Assembly: GCF_002161675.1 (NCBI RefSeq)
Contig: NZ_NFIH01000018.1
Location: 1 to 51,525, forward strand
Length of the DNA stretch: 51,525 bases
Direction of reading: 5' to 3'
DNA from: Pseudoflavonifractor sp. An44
Lineage (GTDB): Bacteria; Bacillota; Clostridia; Oscillospirales; Oscillospiraceae
Shown here: piece by piece, positions 1,375 through 25,526 of the stretch
Layout of the letters: each line of letters opens with the position of its first letter
Position numbering within the stretch: position 1 is the first letter of the stretch
Notes under the pieces: generated by a model
What the model saw: only the letters and a program-made list of their open reading frames with translations
What the model was told of the DNA's origin: nothing
Database searches by the model: none
Program-made: the position numbers and the translations under genes

Positions 1375-1380
1375 AGACAC

Positions 1381-1460
1381 GCTGTATGACTGACGGAAGT
1401 GGAGTGACCACGTGGAGTACAGCCGACGCCCATGTGCGCCGTATTGCCGACCGTCTGGGC
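1381..1460 (+). ncRNA. ZTP (pfl) riboswitch aptamer
   Basis: The leader folds as a ZTP riboswitch, which senses the purine intermediates ZMP/ZTP that accumulate when 10-formyl-tetrahydrofolate is short. Visible parts are: P1, GCTGTA (1381-1386) with TACAGC (1418-1423); P2, GTGG (1399-1402) with CCAC (1408-1411); the pseudoknot GACGG (1392-1396) with CCGTC (1451-1455); and the conserved 3' segment GCCGACCGTCTGGGC ending at 1460. The last four bases also begin the terminator stem that follows. Ligand binding and termination are therefore mutually exclusive, as in known ON switches. The regulated gene, fhs, is a classic member of this regulon. Family assignment is from memory of the consensus. 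Confidence 0.88.
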
Positions 1461-1487
1461 GCACTCGAAATCAGTGCGCCCTTTTTT
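1457..1487 (+). terminator. Riboswitch-controlled intrinsic terminator
   Basis: A perfect 9-bp stem, GGGCGCACT (1457-1465) with AGTGCGCCC (1473-1481), is followed by six T and then five more T after one G. It overlaps the CTGGGC end of the ZTP aptamer, so bound ligand should prevent its formation and let transcription reach fhs. Confidence 0.88.
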
Positions 1488-4435: not shown

Positions 4436-4546
4436 TTGACCATGACATACGCCTATCGTACAAAATGAACGATGTCTATATGATAGCATGGCAGAGCCCT
4501 TTGGGCAATGGGGGTATGTGAGATTCAGATAGAAGGGAGAAGAACA

Positions 4547-7500
4547 ATGGAAAAAGTCAGAAAAAGCATGGCAATGTTACTTGCCGTCATGATGCTGGCT
4601 GGCGCACTTCCTGGCGAGGCTTGGGCTGAGGGCACTCAGACCAATGAGCGCACGGTCCAGGCCCAGGAAGTGGAGTCCGAGTCCCGGGTGCAGTACCAGG
4701 ACGCCCAGGACGACAGCCAGCCCCGATATGCAGAGGATGAGGTGGTAACCGTCATCGTGGAGATGGAAGCTCCTGCTGTGATGGATTACTACCAGGTCAG
4801 CAGCTACGCTGCCTCTGTGGGCGACGAGACCAGCGCTGGTGAGGCGGTGTCTGAGTACCTGGCCTCCGCCGATGCCCAGCAGACCACCCAGCAGCTGCTG
4901 GACGATCAGCAGGGCATCATCGACCAGGTGACCGCTCTGGCCGCTCAGCAGCCTGCGGTGACCGATGCCACCGAGGAAAACAGCGGTGAGCCGGTTGGTA
5001 CCATTGTAGGCCAGTGGGCCACTCTGGTCAATGCCATGGCTATCCGGGTGCCCTACAGCGCTCTGGATGAAATTCGCAACCTGGACGGGGTCAAGCGGGC
5101 CTATGTGGAGCTGGTGTATGACCGGCCCGAAGAGACCAGCGGCACCGTGGACGGGGACAAGGCCTGGTACTCCTACAGCTATGATAAGGTAGGGGTGGAA
5201 GGTGTCTGGAGCCAGGGCTACACCGGTCAGGGTATGCTGGTGGCCGTGCTGGACACCGGCCTGGACCTGAAGTGGGGCGTGACCCAGAACGAGGATGGCA
5301 CCCAGGGCCGCGGCGTGGTGCGGGTCCACGAGGCCTTCACCGACAACTCCTTTAAAAACGACCCCAGCGATGCCGAGAGCGGCTGGAATCTGCGCTACAC
5401 CTCTGAGAGCCTGGCTGCCTTCCTGGAGGACAACCAGCTCAACTCCACCACGGGTGCCGATGGCGGCGTGATCGTGTGGGACTACAACGGTCTTTATAAG
5501 AACCTCAAGGTGCCCTACGCCTGTGACTACGCAGACGGCGACATCAACGTCCTGCCCACCTCCAGCGACCACGGCACCCACGTCTCCGGTACGGTGGCGG
5601 GCTATGCCGAGACCAGCGAGGGCGAGGTCATTTTCTCCGGCGTGGCCCCCGATGCCCAGATCATGATGATGAAGGTGTTCCCCGATCAGGACGGCGGCGC
5701 CCAGCAGTCTGTGACCCTCAACGCTCTGGAGGATGCTCTGGCCTTGGGCGCCGACGTCATCAACCTGAGTTTGGGTTCTGACAACGGCTTTGCCGACGAC
5801 GACACCATGCAGAACGAGCTGTACGCCCGCATTGAGGAGGCCGGCATTGTGCTCATGACCTCCGCTGGCAACAGCAGCTACTCCTCTGCCAGCAACAACT
5901 ATGGGGACAACCCCCTGACCTCCAACGTGGACACCGCTATGATGTCCTCTCCTGCCATTTACGACTCCAACCTGAGCATTGCCTCTCTGGAGAACTCCAT
6001 CCAGGTACAGTCCTACCTGACCTGGACCAACGAGGACGGGGAAGTGCGGGAGATCTCCTACACCGACCCCTGGACCGTGGCCATGAAGGCCACCTTCGCC
6101 GACGGCAAGGAGTACCCCGTCTACCTGGTAGAGGGCACCGGTACCTGGAGCGACTACAACGCCGTGGGCTGGTACAATGAGTACTCCAATCAAAATGGCA
6201 AGACCGGCTTTGCCCTGGTCAAGCGCGGCGACCTGTCCTTTGCCGATAAGGTCACCAACGCCCAGTCCTTCTCCACTGTGGTCCACGGAGAGAAACGGGG
6301 CATTCTGGGCGTGCTGATCTATGACAGCGATCCCAATGCCACGGAACTGATCAACATCAGCGTGGAGAACACCAGCCTCACCAGCGCCTTTATCAACGGC
6401 CAGGACGGCGCTGCCATGGAGGCTGCCCTCAAGGCAGGTCAGTCCGTGAACATCGTGGTTCCCGAGGACGACAAGGCCGTGGAGAGCCCCACCGATGGTC
6501 AGATGTCCACCTTCTCCTCCTGGGGCGCCGGTCCCAGCCTGGAGCTGAAGCCTGAGATCACCGCCCCCGGCGGCAACATCTGGTCCACCATCATTGACCA
6601 GCTGAACACCGCCGACCAGGGCTACACCGGCAGCTACGGCATGATGAGCGGTACCTCCATGGCCGCCCCCCACATGACCGGTATTGCCACTCTGGTGCGC
6701 CAGTACGTGCAGTCCAGCGCAGCCTTTGCCGGCAAGGAGCCCGGTGAGGTGGGCGACATCGTCAACCAGCTGCTGGTGAGCACCGCCGTGCCTCAGACCG
6801 ATACCAATGGCGTGTACTACTCTCCCCGTCAGCAGGGCGCCGGTCTGGTCAACGCCACCGCCGCCGTGGAGACCCCTGCCTACGTCACCGTGGACGGTCA
6901 GAACGTGGGCAAGCTGGAGCTGTTGGACGACCCCGACCGCACCGGCAGCTACGACATCACCTTTGATGTACACAACATTTCCGACAAGGCCGTGACCTAC
7001 AATGTGGCCATCACCCTCATGCGCCCTGCCACCGAGACGGTGGACAGCGCCTGGGGTGAGCGGGACACCATGATGCACCAGGACGTGGTCATCAAGACTG
7101 TGGAGCTGGGCCAGGTCACCGTGGAGGCGGGCCAGACCGTCACCTTCTCCAAGACTGTGACCCTCACCGACAGTGAGAAGGCCCAGCTGGACCAGCTGTT
7201 TGAAAACGGCGTGTATGTGGAGGGCTTTGTCTCCCTCACCGACACCGCCGGCACCGCTCCTACCCTGGGCCTGCCCATGCTGGCCTTCTACGGCGACTGG
7301 ACTGCCGCCCCCATCTTTGACCAGGGCGACTGGACCGACGAGGCCGAGGACGGCGAGAACGTGATGAACAACGAGTCCACCTGGGGCGTGTCCCTGATGG
7401 GCTGCACCATGATCAACTGGAGCTCCGGGGGGATCGTCGGCTACCTGGACCTGGGCCAGAATCCCTTTGACTCCGACGCTGTCATGAACCAGACCCTCTA

Positions 7501-10279
7501 TCACGAGGAGAACATCACCATCTCGCCCAACGGAGACGAGTACTTCGACCGCATCGACGACTACATTCTCTATCAGCTCCGTGATGCCAAGATGATTGTG
7601 GTGCGGGTCACCGATGCCGAGACCGGTGAGGTGTACTTTGCCGACTGGAACTCTTACATCACTCGTACCCTGTACAACGCCTCTTACGCCACCGCCATTC
7701 CCCAGAGTGCCATGTACTACGGCCTCATTCCCACCTGGGACGGCACCGACCAGGAGGGCAACGTCCTGCCCAGCGGCACCCAGTGCAAGTATGAGATCAT
7801 CGCCTATGGCGAGGGTGACTACGGCGACAAGGTGTACAACGAGGAAGTGGGCTATGACATCACCAACTTTGACGCCGTGGCCGCTGGGGAGCTCACTCCC
7901 ACCTTCAACGGCCATGAGATGGACATGACCGGCGACGTGATCTCCTTCTCCGTCACCGTGGACACCGTGGCCCCCGAGCTGGAGAACAACACCGTCTCCA
8001 TCTACGAGAAGAATGGCCGCACCTACATGACTGGCACCGTCTATGACGAGGACGGCTCTCTGGCCAATATCGAGGTCTCCCCCTATGTGGTCCGTACCTA
8101 TAAGGACGGCTACGGCGATCCCAACTACTCCGAGGTGGGCGTGGATGCCACCAACGCCTTCCTGGTGGAGAACTTCTATGACCCCGCCGTGAAGACCCAC
8201 ACCTTCACCGTGGACGTCACCGAGTACGCCCACACCGTTGAGAGCTATCCCGGCGAGAACAGCTGCTATGACTTCGAGTGGACCGGCAACGTGCTGGTGT
8301 CCTGCGGCGACTACGGCGCCAATGACCGCAGCTATGCCATCACCGTGGATTCCACCCAGGGCCTGGTGCTGTCTCAGACCTCCGCTCTGCTCCATCCCGG
8401 CAGCACCTTCGACCTGAGTGTCATCGACAACACCGACCAGGAGGGCGCTATGACCCGTACCTCCAGCAACCCCGAGGTGGTCACCGTTGACGATTACGGC
8501 CATGTCACTGCGGTGGCTCCCGGCCAGGCCGTGATCACCGTGGCCAAGGGCGACGCCAGCGCTACCTGCGTGGTGGCGGTGGAGGAAGTGCCCACCGTGG
8601 TGGAAGACTTCGACCTATCCATCCAGAGCTTTGACGGCCTGAAGCCCGACGGCCAGGTGGTGGTGAAGGTGGAAAACCTCCAGCCCGCCAATGTGGATCT
8701 CTCCGAGATTCGCTGGACGGTGTGGGAGGATGAGGACTACGCCGAGGACTATGCTGAGGGTCTCATTGATGTGGACCAGTACACCAGCGATGGACTCTCC
8801 GGCGTGCTCTACCTCACCGTGTCCACCTCTCAGGAGGGCCTGGAGCTGCCCGAGGGCAACGGCCGCCTGGATGTGACCCTCAACGGTGTCACCCGTTCCA
8901 TGGACATCAACTGGGACGACATCTACACCACTTCCGATCAGGACGACCTGGTCTCTGACATGGCCATGGGCGACCAGGTGGTATACGTGGATCAGGGCCA
9001 GACCGCCGAGCTGGTGGCCAAGTATCGCCAGAACAAGCTCCACGAGACCAGTGAAGTGCTCACCGAGCTCACCGGTCTGCAGCTGGACGGACCCGACTTC
9101 TACTATGTGGGCGGCACCTATGATGGCACCCTGGTCAACGAAGAGGGATATGAGCTGCCCGAGGAAATCCACCTGTACACCCGGTACAACTACGCCGACG
9201 GCTCCACCTACGATGTGGAAATCGTCAACTACAGCTGGTACCATGCCTATGACTATGACCCCGAGACCGGCGTGCTCCACGTCAATTACGCCCCCAACGG
9301 TGCCAACAACAACCTGGTAATCAAGGCAGAGGGTGTGGAATCCCAGGGCGCTGAGGCTGGCACCATGTCCGGCCAGACCTGGACCCGTCCCGATTCCCTG
9401 TATGGTCCCTTTGACTGGACCGTCACTTCCGGCAACGGCGAGCTGACTCAGGGTACGGTAGAGGACAACTGGGGCCAGGAGATCAATGCGGCTCTGTACA
9501 CCCCCTCCGAGCCCGGCGTGAGCTACATCACCGCCACCACCAAGGACGGCCAGTACTCCGTCAATTTCGCCGTGGTATGCCAGGGCGTGATGGCTGATAC
9601 CTTGGATTTGGACACCCACAGAATGGACCTGGAGGCTGGCCAGAGCCAGACCCTCACCGCCACTCTGAGCCCCGAGCCCACTCTGGCCGAGGATGCCCAG
9701 GTGCGCTACATCAGCTTCAACCCCGATGTGGCCTCTGTGGATGAAAACGGTGTGGTCACCGCCCACAAGGAGGGCTATGCCTACCTGAAGGTGGAGAGCG
9801 TGGCCGACAACCAGGTCACCAGCTACTGCGTGGTCAAGGTCACCGGTAACATGTATCAGGTGAAGTTCGTGGACGACACCGGCAACATCTACAAGCTGGT
9901 GGAAGTGGCCGAGGGCAGCTGCGTGTCCAAGCCCCAGGACCCCGTGCGGGAGGGTTACACCTTCGACGGCTGGTTTATGGACGAGGACGGCACCCAGGCC
10001 TACGACTTCAACACCCCTGTGGATGCTGACCTGACCCTGTACGCCCACTGGACCAAGGAGGACACCGAGCCCACCCCCAATCCCGGTGGTGACGGCGGCT
10101 CCCAGGGCGGCGGCAGCGGTACCGGCGACGGTTCCCAGACCGGGGGCAACACCAAGCCTGACGGCTCCGTCCCCGGCACCGGCGACGAGAGCAACCTGAT
10201 TGTGCCCATGGCCACTCTGGTGTGCGCCATGGCAGGCGTGGCCGTGCTGAGCGTGGTACGCCGCAAGGAAGAGGACTAA
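4547..10279 (+). CDS. Cell-wall-anchored subtilisin-like protease (S8, lactocepin type)
   Basis: This 1910-residue exported serine protease probably degrades extracellular protein for peptide uptake. A signal peptide ends near AWA (residue 27). The catalytic triad is in place: Asp236 in AVLDTGLD, His342 in DHGTHVSG and Ser704 in SGTSMAAPH. A PA-type insert lies between His and Ser (about 510-650). After the catalytic part come Fn3-like beta domains of the C5a-peptidase/lactocepin kind, a Big_2 domain near 1280, another near 1690, and an InlB/Flg_new-type repeat ending YAHW. A Gly/Ser/Thr linker follows, then VPGTGDESN, a hydrophobic helix and RRKEED. That tail is a non-canonical LPXTG-like sorting signal. 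The start at 4547 follows AGAAGGGAG. The gene is flanked by its own promoter and terminator. Confidence 0.93.
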   Translation: MEKVRKSMAMLLAVMMLAGALPGEAWAEGTQTNERTVQAQEVESESRVQYQDAQDDSQPRYAEDEVVTVIVEMEAPAVMDYYQVSSYAASVGDETSAGEAVSEYLASADAQQTTQQLLDDQQGIIDQVTALAAQQPAVTDATEENSGEPVGTIVGQWATLVNAMAIRVPYSALDEIRNLDGVKRAYVELVYDRPEETSGTVDGDKAWYSYSYDKVGVEGVWSQGYTGQGMLVAVLDTGLDLKWGVTQNEDGTQGRGVVRVHEAFTDNSFKNDPSDAESGWNLRYTSESLAAFLEDNQLNSTTGADGGVIVWDYNGLYKNLKVPYACDYADGDINVLPTSSDHGTHVSGTVAGYAETSEGEVIFSGVAPDAQIMMMKVFPDQDGGAQQSVTLNALEDALALGADVINLSLGSDNGFADDDTMQNELYARIEEAGIVLMTSAGNSSYSSASNNYGDNPLTSNVDTAMMSSPAIYDSNLSIASLENSIQVQSYLTWTNEDGEVREISYTDPWTVAMKATFADGKEYPVYLVEGTGTWSDYNAVGWYNEYSNQNGKTGFALVKRGDLSFADKVTNAQSFSTVVHGEKRGILGVLIYDSDPNATELINISVENTSLTSAFINGQDGAAMEAALKAGQSVNIVVPEDDKAVESPTDGQMSTFSSWGAGPSLELKPEITAPGGNIWSTIIDQLNTADQGYTGSYGMMSGTSMAAPHMTGIATLVRQYVQSSAAFAGKEPGEVGDIVNQLLVSTAVPQTDTNGVYYSPRQQGAGLVNATAAVETPAYVTVDGQNVGKLELLDDPDRTGSYDITFDVHNISDKAVTYNVAITLMRPATETVDSAWGERDTMMHQDVVIKTVELGQVTVEAGQTVTFSKTVTLTDSEKAQLDQLFENGVYVEGFVSLTDTAGTAPTLGLPMLAFYGDWTAAPIFDQGDWTDEAEDGENVMNNESTWGVSLMGCTMINWSSGGIVGYLDLGQNPFDSDAVMNQTLYHEENITISPNGDEYFDRIDDYILYQLRDAKMIVVRVTDAETGEVYFADWNSYITRTLYNASYATAIPQSAMYYGLIPTWDGTDQEGNVLPSGTQCKYEIIAYGEGDYGDKVYNEEVGYDITNFDAVAAGELTPTFNGHEMDMTGDVISFSVTVDTVAPELENNTVSIYEKNGRTYMTGTVYDEDGSLANIEVSPYVVRTYKDGYGDPNYSEVGVDATNAFLVENFYDPAVKTHTFTVDVTEYAHTVESYPGENSCYDFEWTGNVLVSCGDYGANDRSYAITVDSTQGLVLSQTSALLHPGSTFDLSVIDNTDQEGAMTRTSSNPEVVTVDDYGHVTAVAPGQAVITVAKGDASATCVVAVEEVPTVVEDFDLSIQSFDGLKPDGQVVVKVENLQPANVDLSEIRWTVWEDEDYAEDYAEGLIDVDQYTSDGLSGVLYLTVSTSQEGLELPEGNGRLDVTLNGVTRSMDINWDDIYTTSDQDDLVSDMAMGDQVVYVDQGQTAELVAKYRQNKLHETSEVLTELTGLQLDGPDFYYVGGTYDGTLVNEEGYELPEEIHLYTRYNYADGSTYDVEIVNYSWYHAYDYDPETGVLHVNYAPNGANNNLVIKAEGVESQGAEAGTMSGQTWTRPDSLYGPFDWTVTSGNGELTQGTVEDNWGQEINAALYTPSEPGVSYITATTKDGQYSVNFAVVCQGVMADTLDLDTHRMDLEAGQSQTLTATLSPEPTLAEDAQVRYISFNPDVASVDENGVVTAHKEGYAYLKVESVADNQVTSYCVVKVTGNMYQVKFVDDTGNIYKLVEVAEGSCVSKPQDPVREGYTFDGWFMDEDGTQAYDFNTPVDADLTLYAHWTKEDTEPTPNPGGDGGSQGGGSGTGDGSQTGGNTKPDGSVPGTGDESNLIVPMATLVCAMAGVAVLSVVRRKEED

Positions 10280-10301: not shown

Positions 10302-10333
10302 AAGGCGGGGCCGGATTTTTCCGGCCCCGCCTT
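10302..10333 (+). terminator. Terminator of the subtilase gene
   Basis: A 14-bp perfect stem (10302-10315 with 10320-10333) with a TTTT loop carries GGCGGGGCCGGA and its complement. It is followed by GTTTATG, a short T-rich tail, 22 bases after the stop codon. Confidence 0.85.
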
Positions 10334-10342
10334 GTTTATGGT

Positions 10343-10556
10343 TGAAACAGCAGATTTTCTTTTGAATGATAAAAGCCCTCGGCAGAGTTTCCCCGCCCTG
10401 AGGGGCGGGGAAATAAAATGAAATCTGTTTTTTCCGGGGACATGCGCCTCGGGAAAAACACTTCTCAGCCCGCCAGTGTGGAATTGGGTCGCCCTTTGAC
10501 CCAATTATGCATGCAGCGGGCTGCATCCCCTCGAAAAAATGCTGGCATTTTTTCGA
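10343..10556 (+). ncRNA. Structured intergenic element, copy A (uncharacterised)
   Basis: This element between two converging terminators matches copy B at 25335-25526 in the order of all its parts. P1 is an 11-bp stem (10388-10398 with 10403-10413). P2 is 10 bp (10427-10436 with 10450-10459) with a loop containing GGACATGCGC. The linker ACTTCTCAG follows at 10460-10468. P3 is 8 bp (10466-10473 with 10516-10523) and encloses P3a, 9 bp (10482-10490 with 10498-10506). P4 is 11 bp (10531-10541 with 10546-10556). Stem sequences differ from copy B while pairing is kept. P2 has a U-G pair that works only if the plus strand is transcribed. It is not a family I recognise. It could be an sRNA, a 3'-UTR element or a mobile palindromic repeat. 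Confidence 0.65.
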
Positions 10557-10597
10557 AAAAGTAGGCCGCACAGCCAAAGCTGTGCGGCCTACTTTTT
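10556..10597 (-). terminator. Terminator of the ferredoxin gene
   Basis: A near-perfect palindrome with arms GTAGGCCGCACAGC (ending 10574) and its complement (from 10579) around loop CAAA is flanked by A and T runs. It can end transcription in both directions, and on the minus strand it closes the ferredoxin transcript. Confidence 0.85.
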
Positions 10598-10609
10598 TGC
10601 AGACTGAAA

Positions 10610-10783
10610 TTAGTCGGCGGGAGCGATGGCGCCCACGGGGCAGGTGCCGGCGCAAGCGCCGCAGTCGATGCAAGTACCAGCGTCGATCTGCATGTGATCG
10701 TCACCCATGGAAATAGCGCCCACGGGGCAAGCGGACTCGCAGGAGCCGCAGGACACGCAGGTGTCATTGATTGCATGTGCCAT
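10610..10783 (-). CDS. 2[4Fe-4S] ferredoxin
   Basis: This 57-residue electron carrier holds two CxxCxxCxxxCP motifs: Cys9, 12, 15, 19 and Cys38, 41, 44, 48. Each is followed by VGAI, so it is a clostridial-type ferredoxin that carries low-potential electrons in the cytoplasm for hydrogenases, oxidoreductases and related anaerobic enzymes. The length fits the family. ATG 10783 is chosen because GGAGG stands 10 bases upstream and the protein begins MAHAIND, directly before the first cluster. It has its own promoter (10823-10850) and terminator and diverges from the ClpC-like gene, so it is probably transcribed alone. Confidence 0.95.
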   Translation of the reverse strand: MAHAINDTCVSCGSCESACPVGAISMGDDHMQIDAGTCIDCGACAGTCPVGAIAPAD

Positions 10784-25334: not shown

Positions 25335-25526
25335 TTGAAAACGCTTTTTGTGTAAAAAGCCTCGCAGAGTTCCGTCGCCCGCAGGTGACGGAATAAATTG
25401 AGATTTCGTATTTTCCCAGGACATGTGCATGGGAAAATACACTTCTCAGGCCGCAAACGTGCGAGCGCAAGCGAGTGCGATGCAGCGGACTGCAACTCTC
25501 TCACGAAAATGCTCGCATTTTCGTGA
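25335..25526 (+). ncRNA. Structured intergenic element, copy B (uncharacterised)
   Basis: This is the second copy of the element at 10343-10556. P1 is 10 bp (25370-25379 with 25384-25393). P2 is 11 bp (25408-25418 with 25430-25440) with loop GGACATGTGCA. The linker ACTTCTCAG is at 25441-25449. P3 (25447-25454 with 25485-25492) has one mismatch. P3a (25458-25479) closes on a GCAA tetraloop with tandem G-A pairs. P4 is 11 bp (25501-25511 with 25516-25526). P1 has a G-U pair that would be an A-C mismatch if the minus strand were the RNA; the GNRA loop also exists only on the plus strand. The element therefore probably acts as plus-strand RNA, although the neighbouring genes on both sides run on the minus strand. 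Confidence 0.65.

Follow-up and report, generated by a model that had tools for sequence, protein, structure and literature searches.

The intergenic segments A (10343..10556) and B (25335..25526), both on the plus strand of the window (the whole stretch of 51,525 nucleotides of Pseudoflavonifractor sp. An44 DNA that was analysed), are two members of an interspersed repeat family. Very probably, this family is a non-autonomous transposon (MITE) that is moved in trans by IS1182-type transposases, inserts at and duplicates terminator-like hairpins, and carries a conserved fold. The element is short, non-coding and multicopy, mostly 180-280 bp. The first-pass annotation of the window had proposed a trans-acting sRNA, a cis element or a folded mobile repeat. 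The last of these is favoured by terminal repeats, hairpin duplications and a link to IS1182, which were invisible at that stage since only two old copies were at hand.

Copies A and B in the window

Copy A is flanked by two convergent genes, an S8-peptidase surface-protein gene on the left (4508-10279, plus strand) and a ferredoxin gene on the right (about 10610-10783, minus strand), both assigned by gene family search. A terminator-like hairpin, as read from the sequence, lies on each side, one 3′ of the surface-protein gene (10302..10333, plus strand) and one belonging to the ferredoxin gene (10556..10598, minus strand), and the two hairpins differ from each other. The conserved core of copy A (10373..10467, plus strand, 103.2 bits with the covariance model R1 described below) comprises P0, P1 and P2 together with the unpaired motifs GCAGAGTT and ACTTCTC. 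Sequence and covariation support both the P1 hairpin (10388..10413, plus strand) and the P2 hairpin (10427..10459, plus strand, with the heptaloop ACATGCG at 10440-10446). The core is followed by P3 (10468..10521, plus strand), which has an outer helix GCCCGC/GCGGGC, a wobble-rich middle helix and a variable inner helix, and by the P4 hairpin (10531..10556, plus strand).

Copy B belongs to another subtype, with its core at 25355..25448 (plus strand, 98.9 bits) and its P4 hairpin at 25501..25526 (plus strand); its neighbours are an NlpC/P60 gene and an ireB gene, and it is antisense to both. The two copies, in which P3 is unequal in size, align over their full length with a mean column identity of 77%, confirming a correspondence that had been read by eye. 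Their predicted folds have energies of -94.2 kcal/mol (copy A, z -6.77) and -76.9 kcal/mol (copy B, z -5.93), equalled in both cases by 0 of 200 shuffles. Neither terminal repeats nor a duplicated hairpin were seen at copy A or copy B, and both are old insertions.

As had been supposed, no Rfam family corresponds to the element at its gathering score, group II introns and HEARO included. Permissive matches around copy A lay far under the gathering scores of the families concerned, and 16 further element loci gave zero matches. The only Rfam match of the window is a ZMP/ZTP riboswitch (1376-1467, plus strand, 49.9 bits with a cut-off of 39), located upstream of a formate-tetrahydrofolate ligase gene.

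Family size and host range

A DNA search of the window's own genome gave 44 match rows distributed over about 40 places, with 31 covering most of the body; this copy count is a lower bound, with 40 of 56 candidates scored. The DNA search of near genomes found matches in 13 of 40, the window's genome among them. R1, a covariance model built for the core from 26 sequences and spanning 93 positions, matched 32 of 295 sampled genomes of the order Oscillospirales, again including the window's genome. Genera with a match number 19 of 148 and families six, one family resting on a single weak match. In a class-wide sample, R1 matches were found in 2 of 391 genomes, both from the window's own family and one of them the window's genome. 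The covariance-model search of relatives suggested in the first-pass annotation did yield further copies, and none of the outcomes named there as speaking against a structured element was observed: the copies are many and the covariation, described below, is strong.

A pattern scan of named genomes returned at least 120 stretches. Among the matches listed (80 titles), the taxa are Oscillospiraceae, Ruminococcaceae, Flavonifractor, Pseudoflavonifractor, Intestinimonas, Oscillibacter, Ruminiclostridium and Candidatus Galloscillospira, some titles giving only Eubacterium, Eubacteriales or Clostridia. The seven weakest rows of alignment A3 (E 0.0006-0.008) were excluded from the counts; six are the opposite strand of a true copy and one lies elsewhere in locus L024. 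In one genome (G226), contigs C8, C10, C20 and C35 begin or end at or near element copies, and because contig ends fall at such places, counts of copies in draft genomes are minimum values. One cultured carrier is Flavonifractor plautii ATCC 29863, with a copy in L254. The element also occurs in four contigs of a viral collection (L315-L318).

Anatomy of the element

The compact form measures about 200 bp. In it, CAGnnTGTCGAAAAA, the left terminal repeat, directly abuts GCCTCGCAGAGTT, which is followed by P1, an A-rich linker, P2 with its heptaloop RCRTGYR, ACTTCTC, P3 and P4, the 3′ arm of this last hairpin being the right terminal repeat. Younger copies have terminal inverted repeats of the form CAGnCTGTCrAAAAA. 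A longer form, found in the window's genus and in others, has additional hairpins between the ends and the core. Between their duplications, the 63 copies measured are 182-343 bp long, all but two being shorter than 280 bp.

P0 is the pairing of GAG in GCAGAGTT with CTC in ACTTCTC, and in P3 the inner helix above the outer helix and the wobble-rich middle is of free sequence. The step above the P3 middle is CGAG/CGAG (tandem G-A) in 46 copies and CGCG/CGCG in 8; the remaining steps are various and often fully paired, each in a single copy or a few, and 125 copies outside the search motif were left unscored in this count. The P2 loop, given earlier as GGACATG-YGC, is indeed conserved, although the sequences are better described by a heptaloop RCRTGYR, with additional P2 pairs closing it. 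In compact copies (e.g. L258, L254 and L251), the right repeat has two potential pairing partners, the 5′ arm of P4 and the left terminal repeat, and the two resulting foldings are predicted to be mutually exclusive.

A fold maintained on the plus strand

The interior of the element, P0 to P4, folds on the plus strand, with compensatory and G-U changes preserving the pairing. When 26 cores were aligned by sequence only, changes on both sides occurred in 15 of 24 pairs, and 98.5% of the cells were paired, compared to 88.4% in shuffles. With 105 distinct cores, in an alignment fitted to the model, changes on both sides were seen in 19 of 24 pairs, 98.6% of the cells were paired (80.1% shuffled) and 409 cells had changed on both sides (103.5 in shuffles); this pairing signal was lost once the partners were slid. 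The idea that compensatory change in the stems reflects a selected structure, which had been drawn from copies A and B, therefore holds well beyond these two copies.

The P0-P2 stems of 226 distinct cores contain 4924 Watson-Crick, 185 G-U, 15 A-C and 47 other pairs. Since each G-U pair of the plus strand would be an A-C mismatch in its complement, it is the plus strand that folds, as had been argued from the U-G pair in P2. When the most wobbly pair was removed, 48 G-U pairs remained against 15 A-C (binomial 4e-5, relatedness ignored). In the window's subfamily (43 copies), the middle helix of P3 consists of 128 G-U and 87 Watson-Crick pairs out of 215, with zero other. Changes confined to a single copy numbered 19 in 98 stem sites versus 38 in 82 unpaired sites; of the 19, pairing was kept with a changed partner in 7, 7 gave G-U, 2 gave A-C and 3 were other breaks. 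The unpaired motifs of the core are conserved across families. A small coding frame starting at the conserved ATG of the P2 loop was considered and rejected, with a stop in 53 of 215 copies versus 108 and 73 in the other frames.

Insertion at hairpins and their duplication

Flanks were analysed for 208 of 240 copies, 32 having been dropped because of too little flank or because they repeat another copy. By a strict end pattern, 36 of these copies have both terminal repeats, 45 have one and 127 have neither. Copies with both ends sit between two copies of one segment in 28 of 36 cases, compared to 0 of 173 mismatched pairs, and when ends were not required a flanking duplication was found at 71 of 208 copies versus 0 of 208 mismatched pairs, direct matches only being scored in these controls. 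Target-site duplication, a feature of MITEs, is thus present. A perfect stem of at least 6 bp is held by 55 of 69 direct duplications, and stems of at least 9 bp occur in 22 of 36 left flanks and 26 of 36 right flanks, compared to 1 of 144 control pieces. In the 63 strongest cases the duplicated part measures 18-55 bp (median 30). By simple count, an A- or T-rich run lies beside the duplicated hairpin in 31 of these 63 and is absent in 32, which limits the label of terminator to the former. However, some observations count against the main reading: 137 of 208 copies show no duplication, 14 of 69 direct duplications have no perfect 6-bp stem, and the apparent duplications at L048, L034 and L303 resemble other repeats.

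When the 71 duplications were scored for orientation, 52 were direct, 9 inverted and 10 undecided. Among the 9, L045, L143 and L310 are clearly inverted in the loop, and the others are weak or lengthened by the terminal repeats. At L026 (1057-1414), two elements of different subtypes occupy one site with three copies of one hairpin, the site having been struck twice. At one site of genome G196, the sister species (L177 and L189) have a single hairpin and no element; the hairpins have diverged and the exact empty sequence is unreadable there, and a second site tested had no readable synteny. At L129 (around 1566-1659), one element seems to sit inside another that shares its ends and has an outer duplication of its own. 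Larger composite elements around the core were also considered, and rejected: exact far repeats of at least 18 bases numbered 10, two of them belonging to the L026 double insertion, and apart from the L129 nesting the rest seem unrelated.

An IS1182-family transposase as candidate mobiliser

The window's own genome (G000) has an intact IS1182-family gene, whose 484-aa product scores 385 bits (cut-off 270) and matches the Pfam families DDE_Tnp_1_6, DDE_Tnp_1 and DUF772. The element shares its terminal inverted repeats with resident IS1182-type copies of this genome: the ends of one of them (L146), CAGACTGTCGAAAAA and TTCGACAGTCTG, match those of the element, and the same hairpin lies on both of its sides, inverted in the loop. 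L145, of another genome, shares these ends and is likewise flanked by one hairpin, here as a direct copy. For members of the IS1182 family, long palindromic duplications are on record. Counting against the main reading, at L156 the left end is accompanied by a hairpin that differs from the right-hand one, and a matching left end was present in only 3 of 10 IS1182 loci scanned. An IS1182-family match was found in 9 of 21 carrier genomes tested and in 1 of 4 tested non-carriers; these numbers show no association, many of the assemblies being drafts. The core fold was found in 0 of the 10 IS1182 loci and is hence not generally required for IS1182 transposition.

Of 6 genomes, 5 contain the exact end sequence, at 42 places in total, and the reversed control was found at 0. 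Of 30 such loci that were read, 20 have the core next to the end by pattern, and L342 and L354 hold the core by other searches. At L331, L340 and L345, the same terminal repeat lies beside a hairpin and the core was not found by pattern, suggesting that other elements may share these terminal repeats.

Genomic setting

Gene neighbours were taken from a trained gene finder, which gave 165 copies with close genes on both sides. Among these, 62 lie between convergent genes, 70 between tandem genes with the folded strand antisense, 29 between tandem genes in sense and 4 between divergent genes; among the 488 background pairs drawn from these loci, 74 are convergent, 315 tandem and 99 divergent. 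Convergent sites are therefore enriched (62/165 versus 74/488) and divergent sites depleted (4/165 versus 99/488). IS1182 is one of the families reported to be over-represented between convergent genes (PMC9208149). The tandem antisense to sense ratio of 70:29 (binomial p 5e-5) is similar in two sets (32:14 and 38:15) that come from different collections and possibly share species. This bias could be caused by a polarity of insertion or by the loss of sense copies. A weak test of replication-strand bias by GC skew gave no signal.

The copies lie at gene 3′ ends in many different loci, which does not fit a cis element of particular genes, gene functions having been examined beside the window copies. 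A sigma-70-like promoter with a score of at least 10 was found in 1 of 208 and 0 of 208 copies on the two strands, not above shuffled sequence. This result, which concerns the sigma-70 consensus, goes against a trans-acting sRNA gene with its own promoter. Together with the siting beside genes, mostly antisense in tandem, it makes a dedicated sRNA gene unlikely.

Discussion

We propose that an IS1182-family DDE transposase with the same ends mobilises the element in trans. The transposase would recognise the palindrome of a terminator, possibly in an extruded cruciform state, and would cut the two strands at the base of the extruded hairpin, and repair would leave one hairpin on each side. Cuts at both hairpin bases would make the length of the duplication follow that of the hairpin. 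As a hairpin would be retained on each side, the insertion should hardly disturb transcription, and copies could accumulate.

Several other explanations of the repeats were weighed against this transposon reading. That the flanking hairpins are simply the pre-existing terminators of two convergent genes is true of some copies, such as copy A with its two unlike hairpins, but is scarcely credible for the 71 of 208 copies that are flanked by near-identical segments, seen for no mismatched pair, and tandem sites are common (99/165). A REP-like element mobilised by a RAYT (REP-associated tyrosine transposase) is a reading of close to negligible likelihood. RAYT-like genes are present in some carriers, but a protein query matched in 3 of 13 of them, the element adjoins none of 30 Y1 loci read, and its ends are inverted repeats with hairpin duplication; the candidate was rejected with Y1 profile matches in 4 of 13 carriers versus 13 of 27 non-carriers. 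At L069 and L071, RAYT-like genes are flanked by palindromes of the GTAGGGGC type, seemingly a separate repeat family. A family of trans-acting small RNA genes multiplied by duplication would account for a strong plus-strand structure with conserved unpaired motifs. It is nevertheless very improbable in view of the promoter scan, the terminal repeats and duplicated flanks, and the position of the copies at gene ends.

Even if the element is a transposon, its fold requires an explanation. The covariation might be a by-product of hairpin self-correction (quasi-palindrome template switching) in an unselected fold, as perfect hairpins of free sequence and the changed partner in 7 of 19 single-copy stem changes would suggest. 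Self-correction should yield no strand bias, yet G-U exceeds A-C even without the most wobbly pair, the unpaired motifs are conserved across families, and the P3 middle helix is rich in G-U with zero other mismatch in 43 copies; with the G-U excess and the conserved motifs left unexplained, it is insufficient alone, and we give it little chance. The main alternative to a role of the plus strand as RNA, though a rather unlikely one, is that selection acts on single-stranded DNA, with the plus strand folding during replication or excision and being read by a transposase or a host protein. It is consistent with a target that is a hairpin too, with the lack of a sigma-70-like promoter in the scan and with the tolerance of G-T pairs in DNA hairpins as well. 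On the other hand, the IS1182 loci read are without the fold, the G-U-rich middle helix of P3 and the tandem G-A steps are typical of RNA, if not proof of it, and the GC-skew test, weak as it is, gave no replication-strand signal. Our tentative reading of the fold, held at slightly less than even confidence, is an RNA of the plus strand, arising from read-through or divergent transcription, which would aid the element's own spread or persistence. A more far-reaching version, which we regard as doubtful, makes the body of this DNA transposon a dedicated structured RNA acting in transposition, with a duplication length set by the cruciform junction and not by a fixed stagger. In that case, the plus-strand fold would, for example, bind the IS1182-type transposase or bring it to extruded terminator hairpins, and the rivalry of the left repeat with P4's 5′ arm for the right repeat could act as a switch between closed and open RNA.

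Group IIC introns insert beside intrinsic terminators and carry a folded RNA; the element differs from them in its terminal inverted repeats and duplications, and it has no Rfam group II intron match. The IS1182-family IS of the window's genome (L146) has the same terminal repeats and a hairpin on both sides, but contains the 484-aa transposase gene and no core fold. In the staphylococci, IS1272 and TnSha1, also of the IS1182 family, target terminator hairpins with no sequence consensus, and IS1272 is reported to make a blunt cut and to delete part of the hairpin with no duplication (PMC4923244). Hence, the likeness lies in the transposase family and in the hairpin or terminator target, whereas IS1272 is autonomous and the element here is non-coding, has a conserved fold and duplicates the whole hairpin. 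The partial deletion reported for IS1272 counts against the main reading. The BOX element of Streptococcus pneumoniae is described in the available text as a folded MITE with ends like those of a resident IS, located downstream of genes and with some copies transcribed (PMC3049150). It differs, by description, in being streptococcal and modular (boxA, boxB and boxC), and a duplication of terminator hairpins is not mentioned for BOX in that text (PMC3049150). The SPRITE repeats of S. pneumoniae, in the same text, are likewise short and enriched at gene 3′ ends, but a SPRITE is itself terminator-like, whereas the element here duplicates a terminator (PMC3049150). Folded MITEs, as in BOX, and hairpin-seeking IS1182-family elements were already known separately. 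The combination of an order-wide conserved fold with whole-hairpin duplication is new in that it is not described in the literature found; in the titles and abstract openings covered, mostly of non-subscription journals and ISfinder aside, neither the element nor the whole-hairpin duplication was recognised.

MITEs normally require only their ends. A MITE with a folded interior and fixed motifs across several families of the Oscillospirales, which are common gut bacteria, would be expected to have a function that can be tested. From the duplicated hairpins, the way in which a DDE transposase deals with a terminator or a cruciform could be read out cleanly. Annotators could misread copies of the element as sRNAs or riboswitches, and the covariance model would prevent such errors.
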